From a virus, in the IMG/VR virus record IMGVR_UViG_3300044681_000709, positions 1-26,892 of that record: a stretch of 26,892 nucleotides of DNA, one strand, 5' to 3'. The notes beneath the pieces are model-generated. The model was not told where the DNA came from. It worked only from the letters and a program-made list of their open reading frames with translations, and did no database searches. Shown here in pieces: positions 195-24,570 of this stretch (the first letter of the stretch is position 1; each line of letters starts with the position of its first letter). The position numbers were made by a program, and so were the translations under genes.

Positions 195-632
195 ATGTCT
201 AGATTGTATAATCAAAAATCAGTTGGAGCAGGAAAATTTGTTTTAGGGTCGAAGGCTGTACAAGATTTTACCTATAAAGGGTTTGATAGCAATACCAACA
301 AGAATAATTTTAAGTTATATGATATTGATTTAGTTAAGCAAGACATAATCAATCATTTTTATATTCGCAAAGGAGAGAAGCTACAGAATCCAGATTTTGG
401 AACGATCATCTGGGACATTCTTTTTGAGCCGTTTACAGACGAAGTTAAAAGATTAATTTCAAAGGATGTTGAAGCAATAATTAATTACGATCCTCGCATT
501 AGTGTAAATTCAGTGACTATCGATTCTACAGAACAGGGCATTAGAATTGAAGCAGACATTACATATTTGCCTTTTAATATACTAGAAAAAATGTCGTTTA
601 ATTTTGACAGAAACAACTCGATCATTAACTGA
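195..632 (+). CDS. 25: Baseplate wedge subunit gp25 (GPW/gp25 family)
   Basis: A 145-residue protein of the usual size for T4 gp25. Members of this family are small sheath-initiator-like wedge proteins that sit at the top of the baseplate inner ring and contact gp6/gp53 and the tail sheath. The family core is visible at residues 59-102: KGEKLQNPDFGTIIWD, then LFEPFTDEVK and a D-P-R-I segment. The G-T-x-x-W-D / F-E-P pattern is characteristic of the T4 gp25/GpW family and of type VI secretion TssE. The C-terminal residues 103-135 form the expected pair of beta strands (VNSVTID, IRIEADITY). The N-terminal 45 residues are less conserved and Lys/Asn rich. The start is set by the AGGAGG at 181-186. 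gp6 follows after 42 bases, an order found in marine T4-like phages, whereas T4 itself keeps gp25 elsewhere. Confidence 0.93.
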   Translation: MSRLYNQKSVGAGKFVLGSKAVQDFTYKGFDSNTNKNNFKLYDIDLVKQDIINHFYIRKGEKLQNPDFGTIIWDILFEPFTDEVKRLISKDVEAIINYDPRISVNSVTIDSTEQGIRIEADITYLPFNILEKMSFNFDRNNSIIN

Positions 633-3600: not shown

Positions 3601-4082
3601 ACAGTGACAGTTTGAGAATCAGTTTTGGATCTCAGTTAGATCAAATTAAAGCCATTAGTGATGAAATTATCTATCATCCTGTAGAATACAAAATTTTATT
3701 CGGTCAAACTGCAGAAGAAAAATTACAGGCAGTTTTTAAGGTAGTGAAGAATCCAGCCAAGAGCATAAATGATAATGATTTAAAAGTTAGGATTATTTTA
3801 GCGATCAACGAATTTTTTGAAATCTCTAATTGGGACTTCGGAGATACGTTTTATCTATCAGAACTTATCACTTATGTAACGAATCAAACAGCTCCTGATA
3901 TCAGCAATATGGTGATACTTCCAAAGCAGGAATCGCAGGTATTTGGAAGCCTATTTGAAATAAAAAGCAGATCTGATGAAGTATTTGTTAGCGGAGCCAC
4001 AGTTGATGATATTGTAATAGTTCAGGCATTAAACGCCACTGAATTGAGATCTAATCCTTCTTACATTGTTACTTCTAGTTAA
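675..4082 (+). CDS. 6: Baseplate wedge subunit gp6, enlarged
   Basis: gp6 forms the inner iris-like ring of the T4 baseplate and holds the wedges together. The N-terminal 130 residues show the family pattern: a helical start, then VITYLRENYAEDFNDYIES, YMALVDAIAFMGQSL and RIDLASRENFIDLAERKES. Residues around 925-965 (N-x-D-R-R-I-D-P-S-S-T-N-I-I-D-V-Y) and the C-terminal 150 residues are also typical of marine gp6 proteins. At 1135 residues it is far longer than T4 gp6 (about 660). The extra length lies in a beta-rich middle, roughly residues 400-920. Within it, residues 818-829 are a perfect 12-residue EF-hand-type loop (D-S-D-N-D-G-V-I-D-N-P-E). The ATG at 675 has AGGAA at 663-667, seven bases upstream. 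The next gene begins five bases after its stop. Confidence 0.92.
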   Translation: MTTTARLNNLLLNQDWTRIYQTFQNADFKSYDFENLRRVIITYLRENYAEDFNDYIESSEYMALVDAIAFMGQSLSFRIDLASRENFIDLAERKESVLRLARMLSYNAKRNIPSTGLLKFDTISTSENILDGNGRNLAQQVIVWNDPTNPNWAEQFITVLNSAMADNTEFGRSQGTAVIDGITTDQYRFRSASADVPIYAYNKSVAGRTMSFELVSTSFKDAEEIYEESPLPGRQLGFVYKQDGKGAGSNNTGFFLLFKQGSLEVADFNIDAPTVNEKVAIATENINNNDIWLYSLDAGGNQIFEWTKVSSLVGNNIAYNSINSNIRNIYNVVTKENDKVELVFADGVYGNLPRGSFRTFYRVSNGLSYQISPNDMRGINITIPYLNKKGVINTLSIGLSLKYTVNNSSPSEDIDTIRTNAPALYYTQNRMITGEDYNLAPLASSQNILKVKAVNRTSSGISRNFEIIDASGKYSSVNVYGSDGYIYKEEDQLTFDFKFTNRLDIYNFIRNTVEPKFSSTGIYNFYLTKFNKIFFSDSNTQWTSVTTDINQNTGYFSNAIDSSLLKVGSYTTNILKYVTIGALIKFVPPTGKSFKNGEIVDTDLTDPEQRDKIWTKVVSVAGDGTNAGNGALASGLGPIKFNDIVPTGSIATRIVPKFVNDLPTDLENEMVNLIYSNLNFGIRYDVASTSWQIIDAADLNLLTAFSLGKAGDTTSSNLDSSWIVSFVKETDRYVVRVRTLDYIFGSLEQNRFYFDPSQKTYNAKNNTVQKDQIKVLGINTSSDFITPLIADLSFEISDTIVFDDGYQAANEIKIGFIDSDNDGVIDNPEQFEQIVGEDADLNFLFFRKTTDIYGEIVYDFIDNSGGDILIRNRESLVNINDTEFTDGRLVYFYNQDEAVVKSVNKSTNTFILESSYKVVVGRPTLKFHYIHNANVDRRIDPSSTNIIDVYILPRSYDTEFRNYLAGALTTKPEAPNSDSLRISFGSQLDQIKAISDEIIYHPVEYKILFGQTAEEKLQAVFKVVKNPAKSINDNDLKVRIILAINEFFEISNWDFGDTFYLSELITYVTNQTAPDISNMVILPKQESQVFGSLFEIKSRSDEVFVSGATVDDIVIVQALNATELRSNPSYIVTSS
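3126..3161 (+). other. EF-hand-type calcium-binding loop within gp6
   Basis: Codons 818-829 of gp6 read D-S-D-N-D-G-V-I-D-N-P-E. Acidic residues fall at loop positions 1, 3, 5, 9 and 12 and glycine at position 6, which is the canonical calcium EF-loop pattern also found in dockerins and thrombospondin type 3 repeats. No paired second loop is evident nearby. That the loop binds calcium is inference. Confidence 0.65.
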
Positions 4083-4087
4083 AAATT

Positions 4088-7000
4088 ATGACAGACAAAA
4101 AATTTCCAAAAAGTAATATTCCAATCAGAAAGAGTTCTGATTTCTTACCTCAAGTTTTTAAAACAGAAACTAACGATAAATTCCTACAAGGAACACTAGA
4201 TGGATTGATACAGCCCGGAGTTCTCGATAAGTTAGTTGGATATATAGGACGTAGATACGGAAAGACTTATAGAGGCGACGACGTATATCTAGATTCAGAT
4301 CAAACTCTGCGTAGTCGATATCAGCTTGAGCCGGCTGTGGTTTTGCAAAAAGACACCAAGACTGAAGATTATTTTGATTACCTCGATCTAAAAAATATTT
4401 TATCTTTTTTCAATAATGTAGAAGATAACGATAATATCACCACAGAACAAGAACATTATTCCTGGGATCCTCCGATCGATTGGGATAAGTTTATAAATTA
4501 CAGAGAATACTACTGGGTTCCGGACGGACCGCCTCCGGTGATTATATCTGGACAATCTCAGTCGATTGAAAGTACCTATCGAGTAAGATTAGGTACAAAT
4601 GCTAATTCTTATATTTTTTATCCTGACGGATTAACAAATAATCCTACAATAACTTTATATCGTGGACAGACATATAATTTCATTGTAAATACCCCAGGCG
4701 AAGGGTTGACTATAAAGCGAAATTATGACACCGGTAGTCTTCGCTATAATCCCGATTTGGCTTATCCGAAAGGTGCACTGGTCCTGTTTGACAGCAAGCT
4801 ATGGAGATCGTTGAGAGATATCGCACAAGGTGATGGAAGCACAATAGACGAATTCAGCCAAGACTGGGAATATGTAGAACCTGCCAACGAAGCGTCGTCG
4901 TTAGATTACAATTTTGGAACTACAAATAATGGCGCCGAAACCGGAACGATTACTTTTACGGTGCCGTTCGATGCTCCCGATATATTATATTATCAAAGCA
5001 GCACTAATCCAGATCGCTTAGGAAGATTTTTAATCGCCAATGTTGATACTAACACTTTCCTTGATGTTGAAAAAGAAATAATAGGAAAATTAAATTATAA
5101 AAGTGGAAATGGGATCGAGTTAACTAACGGACTAGTCATAAAGTTTTCTGGAAGCATAGCACCTGAAAAATATGCTGATACCGAAGACAGGTGGATAGTA
5201 GAAGGTGTTGGATCTTATATTAGATTAGTTAAGTTTTCAAATCTATTAATTCCTGCTGATTTAAACGAAACAGCTCCTGAGGTATTATTTGATGATGGAG
5301 GATTCGACACCGATCCCTTTGACGATGCACAATTTTATCCTTCTAGAAAAGATTATATCACTGTCAATAGATCGAGTTTAGATCTTAATGCTTGGTCTAG
5401 ATATAATAGGTGGTTTCATAGAGATGTGTTAAATTATGCCCATGCTGTTAATTTATCCGATTTTGATTCGGACGAAACTCGACGGGCTAAAAGACCGATC
5501 ATAGAATTTAAACCTAATATACAGTTATTCAACCACGGATCTTTTTCGAAAGATCCAGTGGACTTTATTGATGATTTTACCGACGATGTATTTTCTAAAA
5601 TCGAAGGAAGCACCGGTTATCTAGTAGATGGAGAAGCTCTGTTCGAAGGAGCGAGGATATTATGTATAGCCGACACAGATAAATTAGCCAATAATAAAAT
5701 TTACAGAGTTACCTTTATTATTCATAATGGAAGAAAACAGATTAGTCTAAAAGAGACTGATGACTCCGTTAGTACCGAAGGTGATTGCGTTTTAGTAAAA
5801 CGAGGTCAAAAAAATATACGGTCAATGTATCATTACAATGGAGAACAGTGGGTTAAAAGTCAAGAAAAATCAGATGTCAATCAAGCTCCGATGTTCGATG
5901 TTTTTGATTCTACTGGAATAAGTTTATCAGACAATACTTTGTATCCGGTTTCGAGTTTTCAGGGATCTAAGATTTTTAGTTATAAAGTCGGAAATAGTAT
6001 AACAGATTCGGAATTGGGATTTAGTCTAAGTTATCTCAATATCGAAAATGCCGGAGATATATCTTTTAATTTTGATTGGGAGATAGATCAAGTATATTAC
6101 CAACAGGGAGAGAATACATTATCTAAGTTTGTTAAAACAGGATTTTATAAATTTGTAGATGACAGCTCTTACGGCAATTGTTGGACAAATACAGAATTTA
6201 AATTCATACAACCCATTATTGATAGCAAAATAATTACTGTTTCAACAAACCAGGTTGTGTTTAGCTCTATCGACTGGGAAGAGTTTGATCTTGAAACTGA
6301 ATCATTTCTTGAAGTTTTTATAAATGGAGAGAGATCAACAAATCCTTATTCTAGAACACTAGGAACTTTTACATTTGAGAATCTCTTATCGGTCAACGAT
6401 GTTGTTTCATTAAAGATATTTTGCAACACGATTCCCAATGAAGGATATTATGGAATTCCTATAGGATTAGAAAAAAATCCGTTAAATCAAAACCTCACAC
6501 AACTGACATACGGAACGATCGCCGACCACTTAAAATCGGCATTAGAATTTAACACAGATATAGTTGGACCTGTATTAGGAGAAAATAATCTAAGAGACCT
6601 AAATGGGTTTCAACCTTACGGAACAAGGATAGTAAAACATAGCGGATTAGCTCCAGTAGCATTAGCCCTGGCCGTAAGTAAAGATTTTAATATTATTAAA
6701 TCTCTAGAATATAATGCCCAACAGTATCTCGAGTTTAAAAATACTTTTATTAGAGCAATCACTGACGCTGTTGAAAATCTGCCACCTAAGGATCTAGTAG
6801 ATCTAGTCTTAACACAATATTCTAAATCAAAGTTACCTACTGATGCATTTTCAAATTCTGATATGGTAGGCTCGGGTGGATTTTCAGAAATCGTATATGA
6901 AGTTGAAGATCCAGAAATTAAAACTTTTACGTTATCGGAAAAATTTGATTTACAGACTCTGTCTTATAAAGCAGTTTATGTTTACTTGAACGAATCACAA

Positions 7001-10000
7001 TTAATTCACGGAAGAGATTATACATTTGATTCAACATTTGGATTTTTAAATTTATCGACAACATTAGCCGAAGGCGATAATATTGTTATTAGAGAATATA
7101 TTTCTACAGCGAACAATTTTATTCCCTCGACACCTACCAAGATGGGTCTCTATAAAAAATATCTTCCTTATAAATTTATAGATAATACCTATCAGGTTCC
7201 TAGAGAAGTTATCCAAGGGCACGACGGAAGCATAACCGCAGCCTATGGAGACTATAGAGATGATTGTATTTTAGAGCTAGAATTAAGAATCTATAATAAT
7301 ATTAAGAAAGAATATGATCCGTTGGTTTTTGATATTGACCTCATGAGACAGGGATATTATCAGAATGGAGTATTTTCTAAATCTAAAATAGATAGAGTTC
7401 TAACAAGATATTTTTATAAATGGTTATCTAATACCAGTATAGATTTTACGAATAACGATTATTTTGACAGCGAAAATAGTTTTACCTATACATATTCTAC
7501 GCTGTTAGATCGAGACAGAACTGTTAATTTGCCTGGTTATTGGAGAGGAGTATATCAGTGGTTTTACGACACCGATCGCCCGCATACTCGTCCTTGGGAA
7601 ATGTTAGGCTTCAGTGAACAACCTAATTGGTGGGAATCTGAATATGGTCCTGCTCCTTATACTAAAAATAATTTGTTGCTATGGGAAGATTTAAGAGACG
7701 GTATTATACGACAAGGAGTTCGTGCTGGTACATATGATCGATACAAACGTCCCACATTGCTAGATCACCTACCAGTTGACAAAGAAGGAAATCTACTAAG
7801 TCCTCTAGATAGCAACCTAGCTGTTAATTTCAGTTTGATTAATTGCAGAGAAGATTTTAAAGCTGGAGATATAAGTCCAGTGGAATACACATGGAGATCT
7901 AGTTCAGATTTTCCGTTTGCTATATTAATAGCAATGGCGGTATACAGACCTTTTGATTTTATAGTTAAAAATTTCAATAATAATGATACAGAGCTTAATG
8001 TTTTAGGACAGATTGTTGATAAAGAATCCGAATATTTTTCAACGATTGAAGATTATTCTATACCTTCTACAAATAATCCAACTTCCGGGTTGGTGGTATA
8101 TCTATCAGATTATCTAAAAGGTCGAGGACTATCTCCTTCTACTATCTCTGATTTCCTACAAAGTATTGATGTAAGACTGTCTTCTAGATTGTCGGGATTT
8201 GTCGATCAAGACAATCAAAGATATCTTTTAGACAGTAAAAATCCTAACAGCCTTTCGTCTACATTGTTTATACCTCAAGAAAATTATGACATTATCTTTA
8301 ATGTATCGGCTCCTGTCTCGTCAGTGACCTATAGCGGAATCGTAATCGAAAAGGTTAACAGAGGATGGCAAATACGAGGCTACGACAAACTAGATCCAGT
8401 GTTCAAGTATTATTCCCCAGTGAAAAGCAGCAGCGATCCTACGATCACTGTTGGCGGAGTTTCTGAAAACTTTTTGAAATGGGCTCCGGAAAAATTTTAC
8501 GGAAACGGTGTAGTCATATCCTATGGATCTTCGTATTATAGAGCTATAAAGAGTTTTACAAGCGGACTTGATTTTTCTGCAGAAAATTTAAAGCCATTGT
8601 CTAGCCTGCCGATAGTTGGCGGAATAACGGTATCTCGGAGAATAAAATTCAATGATAGAAATATCAGAGAAATGGTATATGGAACGATCTTAACATCTGC
8701 CCAAGATGTGGTAGATTTTATATTTGGATATGATCTCTATCTTCGTAAACTGGGATTCTTATTTGAAGATTATGATCTAGATACTGGTACACCAAAAAAT
8801 TGGCTTACATCGATTAAAGAATTTTTATTCTGGACTCAACATAATTGGCAAGAAGGTTCTCTTTTAACATTAAGTCCCCTAGCAAGTTCGATAAAATATA
8901 CCAACACTACGGGAGTTGTTGATAATCTTCTCGATTCTTTCTATGACTATAGTGTTTTGAAAGCTGACGGAACCCCACTGTTACAAAACCTTATTAATGT
9001 CTACAGAGGCTTTCAAGAATTTAGGCTCTCTACAACTAACACCAATGAAGGAATATATTTCTTTAAGGGATTTTTGGTTCTTAAAGAGCATGTTGTTGTA
9101 TTTGATGACAGGACAGTTTTTAATGATGTTGTGTATGATAAACCTACGGGATATAGGCAAGAACGAATCAAATCTAGAGGGTTCCGAACTACAGACTGGG
9201 ACGGAGATTATACCAGCCCAGGATTTATCTTTGACAATGTAAAAATAGATTCTTGGCAAACCTATACTGATTATAAATTAGGAGATATAATCTTATATCA
9301 GGATAGATACTACACCAGCAGAATTAATCAATCGGGAACCAGCGAATTTGATTATGATAATTGGACAAGATTAGATTTAATTCCTAAAAAGCAACTTATA
9401 CCTAATTTTGATTATAGAATAAATCAAATAGATGATTACTACGATTTAGATTCAGAAGGCGTTGGTCAGAGTCAACGAGATTTAGCTAGACATTTGGTAG
9501 GTTATCAACCTAGAACCTATTTAGAAAACATTGCTGAAGATCCAGTTTTACAATATAAACTCTATCAAGGATTTATTAGAGAAAAAGGAACAGCAAATTC
9601 TATCACTAAGATTTTTGATAAAACTAGCGATATTGAAGACGATAGTGTTGTATTAAAGGAAGAATGGGCTTTTAGAGTAGGTACCTTGGGCGGAAATGAT
9701 CAATTAAGCCAGATAGAATTTTTAGTTGACAAAAATAGTCTAATGGTAAATCCACAGATAACGTTATTAGAAAATGCTACATCTGGAATAATAGTTGATC
9801 AATATCTAAGAATACCTGAAAAAGATTTTACTATAGGAAAAGTGCCTTTTACGTTTGATGTAAATTCAAAGATATATTTTAACGAGATCAATAGATCTGC
9901 AGGGTTTGTAAAGAAAGATCACGTAGACGGAATACTTAAAAATTCTGATGCTCTATTAAATGTAAACATTTTTTCATTGACCGAGAATGATCATATATGG

Positions 10001-13000
10001 TTGACATTTGAAAATAATTCTTGGACAGTTTTGAGATTTAATCAAAATCAATTATTAGTTATAGATAGCGTTGAGGAGAGCGGACAAGACGTAACCTTGA
10101 CATTTAATGTACCTCATTCTTATGTCGAAGGTGATTTAATAGGAATAAAATATATAGGTAATCTAGAAGGGTTTTATAAAATAACCTCTATAGGTACAAA
10201 ATCTGTTACGATTACAAAAACAACAACAAGTCCTGTTTCGTTTGACCCGAGCACAATAACCTTTGTTTATGATTTTACTGTCGCTAGATTTAATAATTAT
10301 GAATCTTTAGATCAAGAAGAAATCGCATTATTAAAATCGGGAAGTAAAGTTTGGGTTGATAATAATGGTGATAAAAAATATGAAGTAATACAAAAAAATA
10401 ATGTTTATTCTAGTAAGTCTATAGTAGATTATGGAATTTCAGTTCCGCTGGGAGCTGGTACAAGAGTTGTTTATGCAGATTTATTATCTCAGACGATAAC
10501 CAGTTATCCGTCGTCCGGTTATGTTATTGCTTATTCAGAATCAATCGACAGGTTAGTTAGTAGATATCTAATTACCGCACCCGAAGAATTAACTACTCTG
10601 TTGGGTAATTCTTTTGGAAAAGGAATAGCACTAAGTCCTGATAACAGATTTTTGATCGTAGGAGCGCCGAACGCATCTGGGATCAGATCGTCATTTTTAG
10701 GCGAGTACGATTCTATGGCGAGTTATTTTGCTAGCGAGGTTGTCGAGTACGGCGGCAAGTTATGGAAGGCCAAAGAAGATATCGTTGGCGATGGTTCGTC
10801 TATAGATGTATATTCTGATAGATGGGAACCAGCAACACTGATAGAATATCTAAGTATCGGAAGAGGCCTAGGATATGCTAATCAGGGTGCTATTTTTATT
10901 TACGAATGGCAAGATCAGCAATGGAATTATAGAACAACATTGTTAAGCCCCTCTATAGATGAAAACGAAAATTTTGGTTTTGATATATCCATAGGTATTA
11001 CAGGGTCTAATTATTTTGCAGCAGTTTCTGCTCCTGGCGCCTTTTTAAATAGAGGAAGAGTTTATCTATTCACTTATAATGGAACAACTTGGTCTCATCT
11101 AGTTAATTCTGATTATGTTGGTCAATACTCTTCTGGAGCCTATTACCCAGAAGGTGCTATAGTCTATTATGACAAGAAACTCTGGCAAGCTCAGACCGAA
11201 ATAATCGGAGATGAAAGCACGATTGCTATTGACGGCATATCAACGGACTGGGTACAAATTGATCCTGTCAGCACAGAAGCTTCTTTACCTATGAATGTTT
11301 TCTTAGGTGAAGATGATGGGTCAACTATAGCATCTGGTATACTAACTGAACAATCTATATCTGAACTAATCAAACAGGGAGATAAATTCGGTCATAGATT
11401 GAATATGAATAGAGATGGTAGTATTCTAGTCATTTCCACACCTTATAGTGATGGACAATTCTTTAATAATTACAGAGGTGACTGGAATTTAACTGAAGAA
11501 TATGTCGAGAATGATGTTGTAAGATATCAGAACAATTATTATAGATTATCTAACCCAGAATTAGATATCGCTGATAGTTCTATAGTTTATACTAATATAG
11601 GTGACGATCCTTCCGACAGCGAAGCATGGATAAATGTAGGCGACAGTACTAATGTTTCTAAAGGTAAAGTCTTTATCTATCAGCGAGATCAATATAATAG
11701 GTATGTATTAAAACAAACAATTACTGCCGGTAATCTTTCTTCTCTTAATGACACTGGAATAGAAGAATCGATAGAAATGGGAGATCTATTCGGGTACGAT
11801 CTTGATATAGATTATACAGGAACAACATTGGTAATTTCTAGTCCTGAATCAGATATCAATTTTATCAATCAGGGAGCTGTGTTTGTTTTTGAAACTTCTG
11901 GTTTCTCTGATATAGAATATAGGCTTAAACAGAAATTGATAAGCCACGAAAAAACTTCAAATTCTTTCTTTGGAGCTAGTGTATCGATTAGTGCCAATAC
12001 CGAACAAATTGTAGTAGGAGCAAAAAGTGCTTCTAGCAAACTTTACACCACATTTGATTCTGTAGAAACTAAGTTTGACCAGAGCACTACAATTTTCTCT
12101 GAAAGCAACGGATATCCAGGACAAGTATATGTCTTCCAGAAAAAATCTACCAAATATCTCCTAGCAGAAAAATTAGAAGCTGATCTACAAACTTTCGAAT
12201 CATTTGGAGAAAGCCTAGATACTACAGCATCAACAATCGTAGTAGGATCACCCGGTTACGGCAACGCTAAACAGGGAATGGTGAGAATATTTAAAAAGAA
12301 TAGTTCTGAAAATTCTTGGTCCACAATATCTATCCAAGAACCGGTAGTTGATGTAGAACTAATTCATTCAATATCGTTATACGATACGTTGTCTAACAAG
12401 AAGGTAGCGGATTTAGATTACATAGATCCTTATAAGAATAAAATCCTTGGTATAGCAGAACAGGAAATAGATTATAAAACGCTTTACGATCCTGCGATTT
12501 ATTCTATAGGAAATGATCTTGTATCGGTTGATACTAGCCAGCCTTGGAGAGAAAAACAAGTTGGAAAAGTCTGGTGGAATCTAGATACAGTTAAATGGAT
12601 CAACTATGAACAAGGTGATATTACTTATCGTTCGGGAAATTGGGGCGAATTTGCGGTAGGATCTACCGTTGATGTCTGCGAGTGGGTTGAGTCTGTGCTA
12701 CTGCCATCGGAGTGGTCGGCGATCGCAGATACTACTGATGGCTTGTCGGTGGGAATTTCAGGACAGCCTGTATATCCTGACGATTCTGTTTATTCTGTCA
12801 AGCAGATTTATAATATCAATACAGGTGAGCTGTCAGAGACAAAATATTATTATTGGGTTAAAAATAAAAAAACTATTGCCGGAAATCGCAGAAAATCAGT
12901 CTATGATATTGCAGCAATAATCCAAAATCCTGCAGCAGCGAATCTACCATTTATGGCATTTACAGATTCTGATAGTTTCTTGTTCTACAATTTTGATTCT

Positions 13001-16000
13001 GTAATAACAAACAGTGAAACTTATTTAAATATTGAATACAAGAAAACACGAGGAGAGCTAACTCCGATACATCGTGAATATGTATTGTTAACCGAAGGAC
13101 AAGCTGATAGTCTACCGCCCGCATCTCTAGAAAGAAAATGGTTAGACAGCCTTGTAGGGTTTGATGAAAAAGGAAATCCGGTTCCTGATCAAAATCTTCC
13201 TATCAAACAAAAATATGGTGTGTTGTTTAGACCAAGACAATCTATGTTTGTTGATAGAGAAAAGATATTAAAGATTGTAATCGATAACATAAATTCTATA
13301 TTAGAAACAAGACCGTTCGCAGATACTGCAAATTTTGATAATTTTAATTCGGAGGACGAAGTACCATCTGAAGAATTAAATGAATATGATATTGCTGTTG
13401 ACAATTTCATCGATCTTGAACAAGTAGGTACAGCTAGATTACGTAGAGCAATTCTAACACCGGTGATAATCGACGGAGAAATCGAAAGCATAAACATTAT
13501 AGATACTGGATTCGGTTATCGAGTAGCGCCTACGATCGAGATAGAAGGTACAGGTACAGGAGCTAAGGGTATCTTGACTATAGATAGCCAAGGAAGAGTT
13601 AGCTCAGCAACTATAACAGTAAAAGGAAAAAATTATTCCTCAGCACTGATAAAAATCAGAGAATTTAGTGTGTTAGTCGAAGTAGACGAAACATCAAACG
13701 GTTATTGGAGTATATACAGTTACGACCAGCAACGTTTAGGTTTTTACAGAAGCAAGACACAGGCATATAGTGTAAAAAATTATTGGGAATATATCGATTG
13801 GTGGAAAGCAGGCTATACCGCTGAATCTAAGATTAAAATAGAAATAGACAATTTATATTTAGAGCCTACATTGGTTCTTGATATTGATGATCTTGTAAGA
13901 GTAAAAGAATACGGCACCGGCGGGTGGATCGTGATAGAAAGAACACAAGATGGCCTAGGAGATTTTGGAAGTAATTATAATCTTGTCGGCCGTCAAAATG
14001 GCACGATTAGAATTAAAGAGTCGTTATATAATACCAAGACCGAATCATTAGGTTTTGACAATGTTGGAGCATTTGATGCTACATTGTACGACCTTCAACC
14101 TTCATTAGAATTAAGAATAATACTAAAAGCGATAAAAGAAGATATCTTCAAAGATGATTTGCGTGTCGAATGGAATAACCTATTCTTTAAGTGTATAAAT
14201 TATCTATATTCTGAGCAAGAATACGTTGACTGGGCATTTAAGACTAGCTTCTTAAACGCTATACATAATGTTGGACCGCTAAAACAAAAATTAAGTTTTA
14301 AAAACGATTTCTTAGATAGTTATAGAGATTATCTAGAAGAAGTCAAACCGTATAGAACTACAATAAGAGAATTTACTAGCAGATATACCAATATCGATAA
14401 CACTAATTCTTTATTGACAGATTTTGATCTTCCTCCTGATTATTCTAAAATAGATGGAAGAATAGTTCCGGTAAGCAGTTCTTATGACAGATTATCAGAA
14501 TTCCCCTGGAAACTTTGGACAGATAACAATTATTATATAATAACTGCCATAGAGATATCTAATCCTGGTGCAGACTATACATCACCGCCTACGGTAAGAA
14601 TCGAAGGAGACGGCCAAGCTGCCGCAGCTACCGCTTATATTGTAAACGGCAAAGTTTCTGCGATCAGAGTTACTAATTCCGGGTATGGATACACAAAAGC
14701 ACCAACAATCACATTGGTGGGAGGAAACGGTAATTCTACAAATATAGCCAAGGCTGTGGCTATCATAGGAGATTCTAAAGTCAGAATGTTTGACTTAAAG
14801 ATAAAGTTTGATAGAATTAACAAAACAGGCTCATTTGAAAATTACAATTTTGATCAAACTTTCATAGCTAACGGTTCTAGTGCATCGTTTAATCTCACAT
14901 ATGCTCCCACACGGGATAAAAGTAAAATAACAGTTATTAAAAATAATCAGTTAGTGCTTTCATCTCAGTATAGCATAACCCTGTATACATCGGCCAACGA
15001 TTCTTATACTGTTATTAGAGGAAAATTAATTTTCAATGATCCTCCATTAGCAGGTGATGTGATACAAATCATATATGACAAAAACGAAGATCTCTACGAT
15101 AGTGTAGATAGAATCAACAAATATTATCAGCCTTTCTCGGGAATGAAGGGTAAAGAAATTAATCAGTTAATGACAGGTGTTGATTACGGCGGCGTTCTTA
15201 TACAGGGAACGACGTTTGACGTCACAGGCGGCTGGGATGCTTTACCTTGGTTTACAGAAGGATGGGATAGCGTTGAGTCTAATGGAGACTTCTATTATGT
15301 AATGGATATAGATCAAGCTCCAGACTCTGAAGTCGATGGTCAAATAGAACCCTACAGATCCGGAGCAGTTGTTGAAGTCTCTGGAAGATTGTATGTTGCG
15401 ATCGCAGATACAGTTGAAACAACAACCGGAACTATTATCCTTCCATTGGATGATGGATGGGAGCAGTATTGGGAAGAGTTCAGCATTACCCTACCTTATA
15501 CTCCTGCGGCTGGTCAGCAGGTAACAATTTATCTAAAACGTAATTTTGACGATCCGTACATAGGTTTATCTTTAGAAGATACATTATCTAAAAAGGTCGA
15601 TAATTTACAGTATTCTTCGGAAATTTCTCAAAATACTAGAACAATTAGAATTGATGACCCATTCTTTAGCATCTATGACGGATCAACAATACAACCCAAC
15701 GGCAGAATAAATGCTCCAGAAACTGCCCTTATGCCGACTTTTGTAGGAGACGGATCTACCAACATTATAGAATTTGTTGACCAAGAAACTGGGCTACCTT
15801 ATCTTAGATTGTTGCCCGGCGATACTTTGATATTCAGAACTATTGACAGCGACGGTTCATTGATAATCAACGATGTAAATCTTATAGATACAAATATCAG
15901 CGGAGGAAATCTTTCTTCTTTAGGATCTGCGTACCTTACAGCTACAGGAACATTAGCAGAAGAAATAATAATAGACGGTAGTGATTTGGTAAATCCTACA

Positions 16001-18058
16001 CAAGTACCGGCTCCTGAAGAAAATATTCCAGGCCAGGTTTTGGAAAGTGTCAGTATCCGTGTTTACAACGTGACAAAAACTGGTGCATCTCCGTTGCAGA
16101 CTAAAATTTATCTCGGAGACAATAATACCAAGACATTTTCTACTGATCTAGAAATATTCGAATCATCATCGGTAATAGTTTATGTTGATAAAATTAAACA
16201 AGTATCGGGTATTGATTATGTGTTAGATATAGTGAATAATTCTGTGGTCTTTGAAACTGCACCTGCTGAGACATCGGTGATAGAAATAATCAGTGTTGGG
16301 ATCGGAGGTCTTGAGTTATTAGATTACCAAGAGTTCGTAGCCGACGGCGAGACTAACTTTTTCCTAACCAAAGCTAGATATGACCAAACATCTGCTATTT
16401 CTGTTACGGTTAACGGAGAGTTAACAGACATTGGTTACGTAAATAGCAGTGATTTTATCGACGATCAGGGATTAGTATTAGTACAATTTGGAATTCCGCC
16501 TGAGAGAAATACAGTCATTAAAGTAATATCTATCGGAGTTGCTGACGATGTTGACTCGTCCGGGCTATCTTTAATAAGAGTAAACAAGCAGCAGTACTAT
16601 TATGATGGAAGCTCTAGAAAATTCGCTATAGATGGATTTGTGAATTTGCAGAGGGGTTCTTCAAATTCTAGCGCATTGGTTACAGTAAATGGTAGAGCAC
16701 TGATAGGAATAGATACTGTTTACGAAATTTATGATGGTGTCAACAACAGTTTCAGTGTCGGAGTCGATCCAGAGGAAGCAATTGGAAATATTACATCCGG
16801 AAACATCAAGGTTTATGTCAATAAAGAACTTAAACGATTTGTAATAGATTACGTATATGACGGTAATCAAAACTTAATTACCATTTCTAATTTAAACTTG
16901 GGTGATGAGATAAAAATAGAAATTGATCTTAGAGCCGAATTTTATTTTGAAGATAACGATTTAGTTATATCAACATTGGTACCATTATTTGAGGATGATG
17001 TTATAGAGTTAACATGGTTCGGCGAATATCCTTCTCTTGATATCATTTCAGACGAATATTCTGGAGGAAAATTAATTTATAAGTTAAGCAGAATTCCGTT
17101 GGATATTTCATACCTGTGGGTTTATAAAAATGGTATTCGTTTATCTCAAGACGTAGATTACATATTCTCGAAATTTCAAAATTCGATAATTTTAAAAGAT
17201 AGAACTGTGTCAAATGATCAGATAAAAATAATCCAATTTGGATCTCAGATCAAACAAGAACCAGTAGCTTATGAAATTTTCAAAGACATGTTGAACAAAT
17301 ATCATTTCAAGAGATACAGTAGAAATGCCAATCTATTATTGGCAAAAGATTTAAATTACTATGATTTAGAAATAGAAGTCACCGACGGCACAGAGCTATT
17401 CAATCCAATTCCGTCAAGAAATATCCCCGGAGCTATAATTATCGGTAATGAACGGATAGAATATTTTGAAAAATCTGGAAATATTTTAAGAAAATTGAGA
17501 AGAGGGTGCCAAGGAACTGCTATATCGGAACTATACACTTCTGGCGAATATGTGATCGATATAAGTCCCACAGAAACAATACCGTATAACGAAGAACAGA
17601 TAAGAAGCGATTTTGTCAGCGACGGAAGTAGTTTATTAATCGGACCTTTAGAATTTGTTCCCTCTAAATCTAACGGAACTTTCTACAGATTACAAGACGT
17701 CGATGGTACGTATCTAAGCATCCCGGCAGAATATGGCCAATGCGATGACATCGAAGTTTTCGTAGGTGGCAAGAGATTACTGAAAACAAGTATTGACATT
17801 TATGACGAAAATCTTGGAGTCATCAGCCCTGAAGCAGATAAGAGAATAGAAGCAGAGTTTAGTGTAGACGGCGCAAACCCGTATTTGAGATTAACTACCC
17901 CCGCACCAGTGGGAACGAGAATCACCGTAATTAGAAAAATCGGAAGAACTTGGCAAGAACGAGGCGAAAACTCTGCAAGTAAGGGGGTAACTTTTACGAG
18001 AAACGATACCCCGATAATTAAATTCATCAATGAAAAGACCAGTCAATTACCTGAATAA
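4088..18058 (+). CDS. Giant modular baseplate-associated structural protein (4656 residues)
   Basis: I recognise this as the very large virion structural protein of marine T4-like phages, placed directly after gp6. Its slot matches T4 gp7/gp8, but I see no sequence match to those, so a wedge role is inferred from position. Residues 4-150 are the conserved N-terminus (KFPKSNIPIRKSSDFLP, VGYIGRRYGKTYRGDDVYLD, LRSRYQLEP, WDKFINYREYYWVPDGPP). A cupredoxin-like domain follows at about 166-319. Further conserved core segments are NGFQPYGTRIVKHSGLAPVA (near 842) and PWEMLGFSEQPNWWESEYGP (near 1168). An FG-GAP-type propeller spans about 2143-2752. Two GYGYT..PTI beta modules lie near 3119-3194 and 3488-3570, and Ig-like repeats fill about 3590-4390. 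A GNERIEYFEKSGN...LRRGCQGT module is near 4455-4480. Carbohydrate-binding-like W/Y modules recur at least seven times. Cysteines are very few, and I see no signal peptide or membrane segment. The ATG at 4088 has no clear Shine-Dalgarno and lies five bases after the gp6 stop, suggesting translational coupling. Confidence 0.88.
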   Translation: MTDKKFPKSNIPIRKSSDFLPQVFKTETNDKFLQGTLDGLIQPGVLDKLVGYIGRRYGKTYRGDDVYLDSDQTLRSRYQLEPAVVLQKDTKTEDYFDYLDLKNILSFFNNVEDNDNITTEQEHYSWDPPIDWDKFINYREYYWVPDGPPPVIISGQSQSIESTYRVRLGTNANSYIFYPDGLTNNPTITLYRGQTYNFIVNTPGEGLTIKRNYDTGSLRYNPDLAYPKGALVLFDSKLWRSLRDIAQGDGSTIDEFSQDWEYVEPANEASSLDYNFGTTNNGAETGTITFTVPFDAPDILYYQSSTNPDRLGRFLIANVDTNTFLDVEKEIIGKLNYKSGNGIELTNGLVIKFSGSIAPEKYADTEDRWIVEGVGSYIRLVKFSNLLIPADLNETAPEVLFDDGGFDTDPFDDAQFYPSRKDYITVNRSSLDLNAWSRYNRWFHRDVLNYAHAVNLSDFDSDETRRAKRPIIEFKPNIQLFNHGSFSKDPVDFIDDFTDDVFSKIEGSTGYLVDGEALFEGARILCIADTDKLANNKIYRVTFIIHNGRKQISLKETDDSVSTEGDCVLVKRGQKNIRSMYHYNGEQWVKSQEKSDVNQAPMFDVFDSTGISLSDNTLYPVSSFQGSKIFSYKVGNSITDSELGFSLSYLNIENAGDISFNFDWEIDQVYYQQGENTLSKFVKTGFYKFVDDSSYGNCWTNTEFKFIQPIIDSKIITVSTNQVVFSSIDWEEFDLETESFLEVFINGERSTNPYSRTLGTFTFENLLSVNDVVSLKIFCNTIPNEGYYGIPIGLEKNPLNQNLTQLTYGTIADHLKSALEFNTDIVGPVLGENNLRDLNGFQPYGTRIVKHSGLAPVALALAVSKDFNIIKSLEYNAQQYLEFKNTFIRAITDAVENLPPKDLVDLVLTQYSKSKLPTDAFSNSDMVGSGGFSEIVYEVEDPEIKTFTLSEKFDLQTLSYKAVYVYLNESQLIHGRDYTFDSTFGFLNLSTTLAEGDNIVIREYISTANNFIPSTPTKMGLYKKYLPYKFIDNTYQVPREVIQGHDGSITAAYGDYRDDCILELELRIYNNIKKEYDPLVFDIDLMRQGYYQNGVFSKSKIDRVLTRYFYKWLSNTSIDFTNNDYFDSENSFTYTYSTLLDRDRTVNLPGYWRGVYQWFYDTDRPHTRPWEMLGFSEQPNWWESEYGPAPYTKNNLLLWEDLRDGIIRQGVRAGTYDRYKRPTLLDHLPVDKEGNLLSPLDSNLAVNFSLINCREDFKAGDISPVEYTWRSSSDFPFAILIAMAVYRPFDFIVKNFNNNDTELNVLGQIVDKESEYFSTIEDYSIPSTNNPTSGLVVYLSDYLKGRGLSPSTISDFLQSIDVRLSSRLSGFVDQDNQRYLLDSKNPNSLSSTLFIPQENYDIIFNVSAPVSSVTYSGIVIEKVNRGWQIRGYDKLDPVFKYYSPVKSSSDPTITVGGVSENFLKWAPEKFYGNGVVISYGSSYYRAIKSFTSGLDFSAENLKPLSSLPIVGGITVSRRIKFNDRNIREMVYGTILTSAQDVVDFIFGYDLYLRKLGFLFEDYDLDTGTPKNWLTSIKEFLFWTQHNWQEGSLLTLSPLASSIKYTNTTGVVDNLLDSFYDYSVLKADGTPLLQNLINVYRGFQEFRLSTTNTNEGIYFFKGFLVLKEHVVVFDDRTVFNDVVYDKPTGYRQERIKSRGFRTTDWDGDYTSPGFIFDNVKIDSWQTYTDYKLGDIILYQDRYYTSRINQSGTSEFDYDNWTRLDLIPKKQLIPNFDYRINQIDDYYDLDSEGVGQSQRDLARHLVGYQPRTYLENIAEDPVLQYKLYQGFIREKGTANSITKIFDKTSDIEDDSVVLKEEWAFRVGTLGGNDQLSQIEFLVDKNSLMVNPQITLLENATSGIIVDQYLRIPEKDFTIGKVPFTFDVNSKIYFNEINRSAGFVKKDHVDGILKNSDALLNVNIFSLTENDHIWLTFENNSWTVLRFNQNQLLVIDSVEESGQDVTLTFNVPHSYVEGDLIGIKYIGNLEGFYKITSIGTKSVTITKTTTSPVSFDPSTITFVYDFTVARFNNYESLDQEEIALLKSGSKVWVDNNGDKKYEVIQKNNVYSSKSIVDYGISVPLGAGTRVVYADLLSQTITSYPSSGYVIAYSESIDRLVSRYLITAPEELTTLLGNSFGKGIALSPDNRFLIVGAPNASGIRSSFLGEYDSMASYFASEVVEYGGKLWKAKEDIVGDGSSIDVYSDRWEPATLIEYLSIGRGLGYANQGAIFIYEWQDQQWNYRTTLLSPSIDENENFGFDISIGITGSNYFAAVSAPGAFLNRGRVYLFTYNGTTWSHLVNSDYVGQYSSGAYYPEGAIVYYDKKLWQAQTEIIGDESTIAIDGISTDWVQIDPVSTEASLPMNVFLGEDDGSTIASGILTEQSISELIKQGDKFGHRLNMNRDGSILVISTPYSDGQFFNNYRGDWNLTEEYVENDVVRYQNNYYRLSNPELDIADSSIVYTNIGDDPSDSEAWINVGDSTNVSKGKVFIYQRDQYNRYVLKQTITAGNLSSLNDTGIEESIEMGDLFGYDLDIDYTGTTLVISSPESDINFINQGAVFVFETSGFSDIEYRLKQKLISHEKTSNSFFGASVSISANTEQIVVGAKSASSKLYTTFDSVETKFDQSTTIFSESNGYPGQVYVFQKKSTKYLLAEKLEADLQTFESFGESLDTTASTIVVGSPGYGNAKQGMVRIFKKNSSENSWSTISIQEPVVDVELIHSISLYDTLSNKKVADLDYIDPYKNKILGIAEQEIDYKTLYDPAIYSIGNDLVSVDTSQPWREKQVGKVWWNLDTVKWINYEQGDITYRSGNWGEFAVGSTVDVCEWVESVLLPSEWSAIADTTDGLSVGISGQPVYPDDSVYSVKQIYNINTGELSETKYYYWVKNKKTIAGNRRKSVYDIAAIIQNPAAANLPFMAFTDSDSFLFYNFDSVITNSETYLNIEYKKTRGELTPIHREYVLLTEGQADSLPPASLERKWLDSLVGFDEKGNPVPDQNLPIKQKYGVLFRPRQSMFVDREKILKIVIDNINSILETRPFADTANFDNFNSEDEVPSEELNEYDIAVDNFIDLEQVGTARLRRAILTPVIIDGEIESINIIDTGFGYRVAPTIEIEGTGTGAKGILTIDSQGRVSSATITVKGKNYSSALIKIREFSVLVEVDETSNGYWSIYSYDQQRLGFYRSKTQAYSVKNYWEYIDWWKAGYTAESKIKIEIDNLYLEPTLVLDIDDLVRVKEYGTGGWIVIERTQDGLGDFGSNYNLVGRQNGTIRIKESLYNTKTESLGFDNVGAFDATLYDLQPSLELRIILKAIKEDIFKDDLRVEWNNLFFKCINYLYSEQEYVDWAFKTSFLNAIHNVGPLKQKLSFKNDFLDSYRDYLEEVKPYRTTIREFTSRYTNIDNTNSLLTDFDLPPDYSKIDGRIVPVSSSYDRLSEFPWKLWTDNNYYIITAIEISNPGADYTSPPTVRIEGDGQAAAATAYIVNGKVSAIRVTNSGYGYTKAPTITLVGGNGNSTNIAKAVAIIGDSKVRMFDLKIKFDRINKTGSFENYNFDQTFIANGSSASFNLTYAPTRDKSKITVIKNNQLVLSSQYSITLYTSANDSYTVIRGKLIFNDPPLAGDVIQIIYDKNEDLYDSVDRINKYYQPFSGMKGKEINQLMTGVDYGGVLIQGTTFDVTGGWDALPWFTEGWDSVESNGDFYYVMDIDQAPDSEVDGQIEPYRSGAVVEVSGRLYVAIADTVETTTGTIILPLDDGWEQYWEEFSITLPYTPAAGQQVTIYLKRNFDDPYIGLSLEDTLSKKVDNLQYSSEISQNTRTIRIDDPFFSIYDGSTIQPNGRINAPETALMPTFVGDGSTNIIEFVDQETGLPYLRLLPGDTLIFRTIDSDGSLIINDVNLIDTNISGGNLSSLGSAYLTATGTLAEEIIIDGSDLVNPTQVPAPEENIPGQVLESVSIRVYNVTKTGASPLQTKIYLGDNNTKTFSTDLEIFESSSVIVYVDKIKQVSGIDYVLDIVNNSVVFETAPAETSVIEIISVGIGGLELLDYQEFVADGETNFFLTKARYDQTSAISVTVNGELTDIGYVNSSDFIDDQGLVLVQFGIPPERNTVIKVISIGVADDVDSSGLSLIRVNKQQYYYDGSSRKFAIDGFVNLQRGSSNSSALVTVNGRALIGIDTVYEIYDGVNNSFSVGVDPEEAIGNITSGNIKVYVNKELKRFVIDYVYDGNQNLITISNLNLGDEIKIEIDLRAEFYFEDNDLVISTLVPLFEDDVIELTWFGEYPSLDIISDEYSGGKLIYKLSRIPLDISYLWVYKNGIRLSQDVDYIFSKFQNSIILKDRTVSNDQIKIIQFGSQIKQEPVAYEIFKDMLNKYHFKRYSRNANLLLAKDLNYYDLEIEVTDGTELFNPIPSRNIPGAIIIGNERIEYFEKSGNILRKLRRGCQGTAISELYTSGEYVIDISPTETIPYNEEQIRSDFVSDGSSLLIGPLEFVPSKSNGTFYRLQDVDGTYLSIPAEYGQCDDIEVFVGGKRLLKTSIDIYDENLGVISPEADKRIEAEFSVDGANPYLRLTTPAPVGTRITVIRKIGRTWQERGENSASKGVTFTRNDTPIIKFINEKTSQLPE
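4583..5044 (+). other. Cupredoxin-like domain with copper ligands absent (in giant protein)
   Basis: Residues 166-319 follow the plastocyanin-like pattern seen in several marine phage structural proteins: PTITLYRGQTYNFIVN, then GEGLTIK, and later TGTITFTVPFDAPDILYY. In family members with copper ligands the first gap carries H-P-F and the last strand reads Y-x-C-x-x-H-x-x-M. Here those positions read GLT and YYQSSTNPDRLG, so His, Cys, His and Met are all missing. A carbohydrate-binding-like W/Y module (4748-4882) is inserted between the two halves. The fold is an inference from the strand pattern and is probably structural only. Confidence 0.5.
4748..4882 (+). other. Carbohydrate-binding-like W/Y module 1 (in giant protein)
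   Basis: Residues 221-265 show the pattern Y-P-K-G-A-L-V-L-F-D-S-K-L-W-R, then GDGSTIDEFSQDWEYV. The layout (Y..G..V.Y...LW.A....GDGS.I......W..V) resembles CBM5/12 (ChtBD3-type) modules, in which exposed aromatics bind chitin or peptidoglycan-like glycans. It lies between the two halves of the cupredoxin-like domain. Sugar binding is inferred. Confidence 0.5.
8480..8602 (+). other. Carbohydrate-binding-like W/Y module 2 (in giant protein)
   Basis: Residues from 1465 read W-A-P-E-K-F-Y-G-N-G-V-V-I-S-Y-G-S-S-Y-Y, then R-A-I-K-S-F-T-S-G. This is the same Y..G.VV.Y...Y.A pattern as module 1 but with a divergent second half (F-S-A-E-N-L-K-P-L) and no closing tryptophan. It is the most degenerate copy. 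Confidence 0.4.
9254..9376 (+). other. Carbohydrate-binding-like W/Y module 3 (in giant protein)
   Basis: Residues 1723-1763 read WQTYTDYKLGDIILYQDRYY, then T-S-R-I-N-Q-S-G-T and Y-D-N-W-T-R-L. This is a near-ideal CBM5/12-like arrangement (W..YT.Y..GDI..Y...YY......G.......W). It stands outside the propeller, just upstream of a linker-like Asp/Tyr-rich stretch. Confidence 0.5.
10514..12343 (+). other. FG-GAP-type beta-propeller with inserted W/Y modules (in giant protein)
   Basis: Six repeats begin with F-G at residues 2176, 2296, 2434, 2568, 2628 and 2706. Each continues with alternating hydrophobics and then (I/V)(V/I)(G/S)(A/S)P-like text (FLIVGAP, FAAVSAP, LVISTP, LVISSP, IVVGA, IVVGSP). 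Each repeat is also followed by a G-x-(V/I)-(Y/F)-(V/I/L)-(F/Y) strand (GAIFIY, GRVYLF, GKVFIY, GAVFVF, GQVYVF, GMVRIF). A seventh such strand (YVIAY, residue 2145) precedes the first F-G, as expected if the ring is closed by the N-terminal strand. Blades 4 and 5 are 60 and 78 residues. Blades 1-3 are 120-138 residues because each carries a W/Y module of roughly 40-55 residues (10703-10831, 11120-11263, 11483-11643). Integrin-alpha-type FG-GAP repeats form such propellers. Ligand binding is inferred. Confidence 0.6.
14861..17250 (+). repeat. Diverged Ig-like beta repeats (in giant protein)
   Basis: The region holds a series of 50-75-residue units built as 'G(D/N/S)GS..F.L ... (V/I).V.(V/K)(N/D)...L..G.DY .......I.F...P...D.I.I...G'. 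Clear copies start near 14861, 16106, 16328, 16594, 16750 and 17061. An isolated copy sits earlier, at about 6893-7105 (VYVYLNESQLIHGRDYTF). They are diverged at the DNA level, so these are old protein repeats. Such units are common in long phage tail proteins and probably form stacked beta sandwiches. Confidence 0.5.
15350..15478 (+). other. Carbohydrate-binding-like W/Y module 7 (in giant protein)
   Basis: Residues 3755-3797 read P-Y-R-S-G-A-V-V-E-V-S-G-R-L-Y-V-A-I-A-D, then T-T-G-T-I-I and a closing G-W-E-Q-Y-W. This is again the Y..G.VV.V...Y.A.....W pattern. Modules 4-6 lie within the propeller blades. Confidence 0.45.
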
Positions 18059-18066: not shown

Positions 18067-18717
18067 ATGGAACCAAAAGAGACAACCATGCCTGAAGACA
18101 AATCTGAAAAAAAACCCAACGAAACTGGGGGATTCCACTTTGAAGGACATATTAAAATATTTGATCCTGAAACTCAAGAAATTTTTATCGATAAGCGAAA
18201 CGCTATACACTATGAAAATATGAGTATAGCTATGGTAAATGCATTATCTAGCCAAGGGCAGGGACAAATATACGAAATGGCGTTTGGTAGTGGGGGTACC
18301 GCTGTAGACCCCACAGGACTTATCACATATCTCACCCCAAACACTGTAGGAACTAATGCTAGTTTGTATAATCAAACATATAGCAAGATTGTAGACCAAA
18401 ATTCGTCTTCCAATACCGATCCAATAAGAAATAAAATGGAAATACGCCATATCAGCGGCGCCACTTACAGTGACATTATTATAAGCTGTTTACTAGACTA
18501 CGGTGAACCGGACGGACAAGAAGCGTTTGATAATAGCCAATCTTTGGATGGTGATTTTGTTTTTGATGAGTTGGGATTAAGAAGCTTTAGTTCAACAGGA
18601 ACCGGAAAACTTTTAACACATGTGGTATTTCACCCTGTACAGAAATCCTTAAACAGACTGCTTCAGATCGATTATACGATTCGTGTACAGAGCTTAACGA
18701 GCTTTAGTGAGGTATAA
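18067..18717 (+). CDS. Conserved virion structural protein of marine T4-like phages
   Basis: A 216-residue protein belonging to a family I recognise from marine T4-like phages by FEGHIKIFDPETQEIFIDKR (residues 24-43), N-A-I-H-Y-E-N, M-A-F-G-S-G-G-T-(A)-V-D-P-T-G, N-A-S-L-Y-N-Q-T-Y, R-N-K-M-E-I-R-H, and a C-terminal L-T-H-V-V-F-H-P-V-Q-K-S-L-N-R. It is annotated as structural in relatives, with no defined biochemical role. It lies between the giant protein and the fibre genes, which suggests a connector or baseplate rim part. The first 23 residues are a charged, low-complexity tail. The start is ambiguous: ATG 18067 gives the longest frame but has no Shine-Dalgarno. ATG 18088 (codon 8) has GAGA five bases upstream and would still include all conserved sequence. 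The next gene starts two bases after the stop. Confidence 0.8.
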   Translation: MEPKETTMPEDKSEKKPNETGGFHFEGHIKIFDPETQEIFIDKRNAIHYENMSIAMVNALSSQGQGQIYEMAFGSGGTAVDPTGLITYLTPNTVGTNASLYNQTYSKIVDQNSSSNTDPIRNKMEIRHISGATYSDIIISCLLDYGEPDGQEAFDNSQSLDGDFVFDELGLRSFSSTGTGKLLTHVVFHPVQKSLNRLLQIDYTIRVQSLTSFSEV

Positions 18718-20792: not shown

Positions 20793-20801
20793 GGATAAAC
20801 A

Positions 20802-22694: not shown

Positions 22695-22706
22695 TCTGGA
22701 GCGATA

Positions 22707-24527: not shown

Positions 24528-24540
24528 AGATTAAAAAGCT

Positions 24541-24548
24541 GATAAATA
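24541..24548 (+). promoter_or_regulatory. T4 late-promoter-like octamer before fibre paralogue 4
   Basis: GATAAATA matches the T4 late consensus TATAAATA at seven of eight positions. It lies in the largest gap downstream of gp6 (43 bases). The expected transcript start near 24554 is upstream of GGAG at 24560-24563 and the ATG at 24571, so the spacing of promoter, leader, Shine-Dalgarno and start is right. This is the most credible promoter in the window. Confidence 0.45.
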
Positions 24549-24570
24549 AGAATAGTAACGGAGCTAGTAA

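Follow-up and report, generated by a model that had tools for sequence, protein, structure and literature searches.

The wedge bundle of contractile tails consists of two copies of gp6 and one of gp7, and minimal tails such as that of XM1 have no gp8, their gp25-, gp6- and gp7-like wedges being sufficient (PMC10457771). The gp7 orthologue of XM1, gp17, is 242 aa long and binds tail spikes (PMC10457771), and in Milano, as in structures solved earlier, BW3 (the gp7 equivalent) is the attachment site of receptor-binding proteins (PMC10811340). Host-cell binding is seen with Gp119, the BW3 wedge protein of Vp4, which has CBM folds, but not with its Deep-Blue homologue, which lacks them (PMC11406892). 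In T4, the genes follow the order gp6, gp7, gp8, gp9, gp10. Giant gp7-like wedge proteins in cyanophages are already implied by PHROG 2885 and Pfam PF23786, and a 2010 cyanophage comparison places gp7 among the non-cyanophage core genes (PMC3037559).

The stretch of DNA analysed here (the window) is a whole IMG/VR record of 26,892 nt, which is classed as linear and is therefore probably a piece of a larger genome. More than half of it (52%) is taken up by a single + strand open reading frame with an ATG at 4088, a stop at 18058 and zero internal stops, which encodes a giant protein of 4656 aa (~526 kDa, computed from the sequence). The gap between the end of gp6 (4082) and the giant start is 5 nt, which bears out the original prediction of one uninterrupted frame filling over half of the window directly after gp6. 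At the base composition of the window ~347 stops are expected in 4656 codons; the remaining two same-strand frames across the gene contain 403 and 526 stops, and its GC content at codon positions 1/2/3 (0.44/0.36/0.27) has a coding-type periodicity. More than 60 complete relatives (2734-4918 aa), from annotated phages and from independent contigs and in part near-identical, are single frames too, so the giant frame is no assembly artefact. We propose that the giant is probably an enlarged gp7/BW3 wedge subunit of this jumbo-phage group. The features of the locus are collected in Table 1.

Table 1. Features of the giant gene and its neighbours in the window (aa positions refer to the giant protein unless a length is given)
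Feature	Position (nt)	Strand	Evidence or remark
gp25-like wedge/sheath initiator	195..632	+	Pfam GPW_gp25 E=3e-9; phrog_43
gp6-like wedge protein, 1135 aa	675..4082	+	phrog_10646 E=3e-281; phrog_219
Giant virion structural protein, proposed gp7/BW3 equivalent	4088..18058	+	4656 aa
N-terminal block, aa 1-150, FLPxxF ... YIGRR ... YQLEP ... DWDKF.NYREYYW	4088..4537	+	aligned in PA5oct, Phosso, SCTP-2, CBB and environmental relatives
Cupredoxin-fold module, aa 160-323	4565..5056	+	AF2 model vs nitrite reductase/rusticyanin, Z 11.1, rmsd 2.1, 100 aa
CBM5/12-like module 1, aa 217-267, inside cupredoxin	4736..4888	+	internal HMM E=1e-22
Most conserved block, aa 1010-1240, YWRGVY..FYDTDRPH..PWEMLGFSE.P.WW	7115..7807	+	alignment
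CBM5/12-like module 2, aa 1462-1508	8471..8611	+	HMM E=6e-16; chitin-oligosaccharide deacetylase module Z 6.7, rmsd 1.4, 45 aa
CBM5/12-like module 3, aa 1719-1766	9242..9385	+	HMM E=3e-19; Milano baseplate chain 8fqc_P1 Z 8.5, rmsd 1.2, 45 aa, 24% identity
Proposed gp7 core, aa 1765-1890, LIPNFDY..QIDDYYD ... LARHLVGYQPRTYL ... YQGFIREKGT ... EEWAF	9380..9757	+	hhalign to cyanophage gp7-like profile
KGT signature segment, aa 1803-1851, via cyanophage giants to T4 gp7 726-758	9494..9640	+	profile alignment
Small beta-barrel, aa 1983-2065	10034..10282	+	like UBA6 and phage endosialidase barrels, Z 8-9, 72-80 aa
FG-GAP beta-propeller, at least six blades, aa 2173-2739	10604..12304	+	Pfam FG-GAP_2 E=1e-14; six repeats by internal HMM
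CBM5/12-like module 4, aa 2203-2253, propeller blade 1	10694..10846	+	internal HMM
CBM5/12-like module 5, aa 2343-2395, propeller blade 2	11114..11272	+	internal HMM
CBM5/12-like module 6, aa 2462-2521, propeller blade 3	11471..11650	+	Pfam CBM_5_12; internal HMM
C-terminal scaffold block 1, aa 2761-3080	12368..13327	+	occupancy 0.83-1.00, 59 full-length relatives
GYxAP repeat module 1, aa 3129-3177; phrog_438-matching part	13472..13618	+	profile search, internal HMM
C-terminal scaffold block 2, aa 3201-3470	13688..14497	+	same 59-relative alignment
GYxAP repeat modules 2 and 3, aa 3482-3571; phrog_460-matching part	14531..14800	+	profile search, internal HMM
CBM5/12-like module 7, aa 3751-3796	15338..15475	+	internal HMM
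Three fibre-type beta-hairpin modules, aa 4017-4080, 4227-4287, 4329-4395	16136..17272	+	internal HMM
Module aa 4412-4494, common with insert inside cyanophage gp7-like core	17321..17569	+	hhalign Prob 82%, E=1e-5
216-aa protein, phrog_11259	18067..18717	+	next gene in 68/105 relatives

The giant falls in phrog_10938, "virion structural protein" (1093 bits over four stretches in a profile search), whose members include about 60 cultured jumbo-phage records. The relatives found by tblastn were PA5oct-like phages, Atu_ph07, Phosso, SCTP-2 and Rak2-like phages (CBB, GAP32, 121Q, RaK2 and others), essentially all of them jumbo phages, and the giant aligns along the chain with its counterparts in PA5oct, Phosso, SCTP-2 and CBB. 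Alignments of the conserved blocks, used as queries, retrieved at least 593-596 relatives from IMG/VR, and the N-terminal 400 residues retrieved 348; a single PA5oct sequence had given no usable match in IMG/VR, whereas the alignment query worked. At the DNA level, a search of the phage collection found no similar sequence. Similar folds are predicted in BFVD for Atu_ph07 and several uncultured phages, none of which carries a functional assignment. The CBB homologue, CBB_236, was detected in virions by mass spectrometry with 21 unique peptides and 7.7% coverage (PMC5259590), and PA5oct gp355 is a virion protein by mass spectrometry according to its record note. The window sequence is one more member of a database family that is known but unexplained.

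The gene order in the window is gp25, gp6, the giant, the 216-aa protein and then four fibre-type proteins, and the T4 gp6 family (phrog_219) matches the window gp6 across aa 25-121 (E=1e-18). Among the relatives with enough upstream sequence, gp6 lies directly upstream of the giant in 226 of 229, and gp25 was found before gp6 in 143 of these 226; the gp25-gp6-giant order is also kept in PA5oct, Phosso and CBB. The original assignment to a gp7/gp8 slot can be retained for gp7, given this conserved placement, but its gp8 part is unsupported. By position alone, the 216-aa neighbour is a candidate gp8 replacement. The record of PA5oct gp357, which occupies the same place, notes its detection by ESI-MS/MS. 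In the Phosso record, the giant gene is followed on the tail-gene strand by radical SAM and oxidoreductase genes and by hypothetical ones (21753-29902).

The four consecutive proteins at 18720-26295 (690, 630, 606 and 574 aa) have a common N-terminal part of ~170-330 aa (31-43% identity, motif ..NYTGYGE..NENF..LLENFAN...P..GQIW..), and their downstream parts diverge. Judged by these sequences, they appear to be a fibre or spike set with one docking domain. The first has Collar and Gp10_C matches, and a 12/24-nt tandem repeat, GGTAATGTCACTGGAAATGTAACA, lies at 25516-25628 within the fourth fibre gene.

A direct profile comparison of the giant with T4 gp7 was negative, and neither phrog_964 nor the Pfam Gp7 domains, the sequence profiles of T4 gp7, found a match in it. 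Pfam and PDB sequence and profile searches gave no match to a gp7 or Tail_P2_I family, the PDB matches being chance only, and the Foldseek/PDB fold searches listed no wedge protein: barrels, cupredoxins and CBMs fill the lists, and the core is modelled with low confidence, so that a wedge fold could have escaped these searches. Because no T4 gp7 profile matched, we do not file the giant as a member of the T4 gp7 family, only as a protein working like one. The search with phrog_964 recovered T4 gp7 as well as the S-H38 signature, and found no match in CBB, 121Q, PA5oct, Phosso, SCTP-2 and two contigs of 353-369 kb. Our functional claim is based on synteny together with this lack of a phrog_964 match in related jumbo genomes; at the sequence level, homology to gp7 is suggestive, not established.

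The sequence link runs through giant proteins of marine cyanophages. Residues 728-758 of T4 gp7 (FYSTKG..SYKFLFK.LYNE), used as query, find cyanophage entries named "large exoprotein", "YadA domain protein" or "structural protein". These proteins have 5172-6198 aa, are encoded directly after gp6 (13904-30442 in one record, similar in three others) and match Pfam Baseplate_wedge (PF23786), and a profile of 82 cyanophage sequences matches T4 gp7 at its signature, 726-758 (Prob 97%, E=8e-11). Between their N-terminal LP motif and the KGT motif, S-H38 and S-RIM14 carry a repeat-rich insert several hundred residues long; in S-SCSM2R, the two motifs are ~180 aa apart. When the cyanophage profile was compared with tiles of aa 1-2130 of the window giant, it matched only where aa 1803-1851 was included (E 2e-4 to 1e-3); every other tile, and every reversed one, had an E no lower than 0.025. 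In absolute terms this match is weak (Prob 21-45% over 43-48 columns). None of 200 column shuffles reached the true E (0.00045; best shuffle 0.0027). When T4 and cyanophage sequences were combined in one profile, the link weakened to E=0.003, a value that one of 100 shuffles also reached. A tile scan of the whole chain gave one stronger match; it joins aa 4412-4494 to the insert that the cyanophage core carries rather than to the core proper. Given this cyanophage link, the earlier statement that the giant has no T4 match that can be recognised goes too far.

A gp7 core at about aa 1765-1890 is supported but not proven; the segment is predicted to be helical, with a low pLDDT of ~55-75. For the N-terminal 400 residues, which the original prediction had singled out for comparison with T4 gp7 and gp8, no resemblance to either was found. 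We also considered a discontinuous gp7 core, whose two parts, at the N-terminal FLPxxF motif and at the KGT motif, would be held apart by 1760 inserted residues, and rejected it, the N-terminal block having no gp7 profile link. The gp7 core can be contiguous, given that the KGT segment is immediately preceded by an LxPNFxxxxxxxxxYY segment.

In an alignment of 59 full-length relatives, the blocks that are nearly always present correspond to ~aa 1-150, 321-1440, 1521-1720, 1761-2000, 2761-3080, 3201-3470 and 4401-4480, the remainder being variable. AlphaFold models of aa 1-1010 (pLDDT 88) and 1001-2130 (pLDDT 83) mix beta modules with helices; the description of the protein as a chain of many beta modules is correct for the modules but leaves out substantial helical parts within aa 1-2130. 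The variable parts are removable modules, namely seven CBM5/12-like modules, six FG-GAP repeats, three GYxAP modules, six fibre-type hairpins and one cupredoxin. For the whole protein, Pfam CBM_5_12 scored 31.6 bits against a cut-off of 26.2, and the CBM5/12 fold was confirmed for two copies (modules 2 and 3). The cupredoxin module is missing in about a third of the relatives, and in nearly all relatives its Cys/His/Met copper-ligand columns are not kept. Besides the hairpins in Table 1, further copies are located at aa 729-788, 949-1012 and 3624-3670. The roles "head closure" and "tail fibre connector", after the names of phrog_460 and phrog_677, were discarded: these matches reflect the common GYxAP and cupredoxin modules rather than a head or gp9 function.

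The same evidence has to be weighed against an unrelated giant peripheral baseplate protein (an arm or outer ring) that sits in the gene position of gp7 while another protein completes the bundle. Such a protein would be expected to have no significant direct similarity to T4 gp7 and no wedge protein among its listed fold matches, and the ~1760 residues that precede the proposed core would be easily accommodated. It would not, however, explain the near-invariant gp6 adjacency or a cyanophage link that is position-specific in tile, reversed and shuffled controls, and no other gp7 was found in the relatives with near-complete genomes; we consider this reading unlikely, though by no means negligible. 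A secreted or otherwise non-structural adhesin-like giant, merely co-transcribed with the tail genes, is suggested by domain content alone, FG-GAP and CBM modules recalling surface adhesins, but homologues occur in purified virions of CBB and PA5oct and the gene is placed near-invariantly within the baseplate operon, which makes this explanation highly improbable.

A true fusion, in which one chain replaces gp7 and gp8 and perhaps more wedge parts, would account for the results with phrog_438, the gp8 family. This profile matches S-H38 and T4 outside the GYxAP repeat as well, but the jumbo genomes only at this internal repeat (~positions 182-338), and no match outside it was found in CBB, 121Q, PA5oct, Phosso, SCTP-2 or the two 353-369 kb contigs; the function of gp8 is therefore located elsewhere or absent in these seven. 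The conserved C-terminal scaffold blocks, to which no fold is assigned, would also leave room for a second wedge part. Yet the giant has no gp8-like segment: hhalign with the gp8 profile gave nothing (best E=0.04), and the phrog_438 matches are the GYxAP repeat only, so that the suggested replacement of several T4 proteins including gp8 finds no support. Moreover, cyanophage S-H38 has a giant plus a separate gp8, and XM1-type minimal tails work without gp8 (PMC10457771). We regard a fusion as improbable.

If the giant is the enlarged gp7/BW3 subunit, its short helical core (~aa 1765-1890) and two molecules of gp6, the product of the preceding gene, would together form the wedge bundle under gp25. 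The long parts on either side, N-terminal and C-terminal, would extend outwards to the edge of the baseplate and act as a platform for the fibres encoded downstream. For the C-terminal half and the inserted modules, the long peripheral arm of the original prediction is plausible. Together, the CBM5/12-like modules (three of them on the propeller), the copper-free cupredoxin and the hairpins might provide weak, many-point contact with host glycans before firing. We infer one copy per wedge, a peripheral position and glycan binding by the giant; six copies, if there is one per wedge, would add ~3.2 MDa to the baseplate. A more far-reaching version, in which a single chain of half a megadalton in each wedge supplies this jumbo-phage clade with gp7, gp8-type functions and an outer tier for receptor contact, the three-CBM propeller serving as an exchangeable first-contact receptor surface, seems rather doubtful to us.

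The gene is labelled "hypothetical" or "structural" across hundreds of environmental contigs and ~60 jumbo-phage records. Were it gp7/BW3, the minimal gp25-gp6-gp7 wedge of these phages would be complete, enlargement of one and the same subunit would be common to the T4-like tails of cyanophages and jumbo phages, and it would become possible to test for a host-contact surface in the baseplate that is separate from the tail fibres. The accessible portions of the literature on CBB, Atu_ph07, RaK2 and marine cyanophages do not name the giant gp7, and within the open literature searched the gp7 reading of the jumbo-phage giant is new. We judge it to be useful for annotation and testable, and to introduce no new kind of system.

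Among known systems, the phrog_10938 relatives are the closest (CBB_236, 3340 aa; 121Q gp582; RaK2; PA5oct gp355, 3857 aa; Atu_ph07; Phosso, 4555 aa; SCTP-2 gp140, 3807 aa). They resemble the window giant in their slot after gp25-gp6 (where the context was read), their conserved blocks and their single giant frame, and relatives have been detected in virions. The window giant differs from the cultured members, with which it has ~25-30% identity over long stretches, in having more inserted modules, notably the CBMs on the propeller blades; the annotated members are without an assigned role. The cyanophage giants (S-H38 gp097, 5512 aa; S-RIM14; S-MbCM100; S-SCSM2R; PHROG 2885/PF23786) likewise follow gp6, carry GYxAP modules and have a weak profile match to the window giant at the gp7 signature, but they are unmatched by phrog_10938, their core lies near the N-terminus without the 1760-aa N-terminal part, and S-H38 keeps a separate gp8. 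T4 gp7 (1032 aa) occupies the same slot between gp6 and gp10-type genes and also has a long stretch N-terminal to its core (~640 aa), but it is 4.5 times shorter and has no direct profile similarity to the giant. Vp4 Gp119, the 831-aa baseplate wedge 3, is a wedge protein with grafted carbohydrate-binding modules, as the giant would be from its sequence and models, although its CBMs are of different families, its phage belongs to a different family and it is far smaller. By analogy, the giant appears to fit the pattern of XM1, Milano and Vp4, itself combining a small conserved core with a large conserved scaffold and exchangeable, putatively glycan-binding modules.
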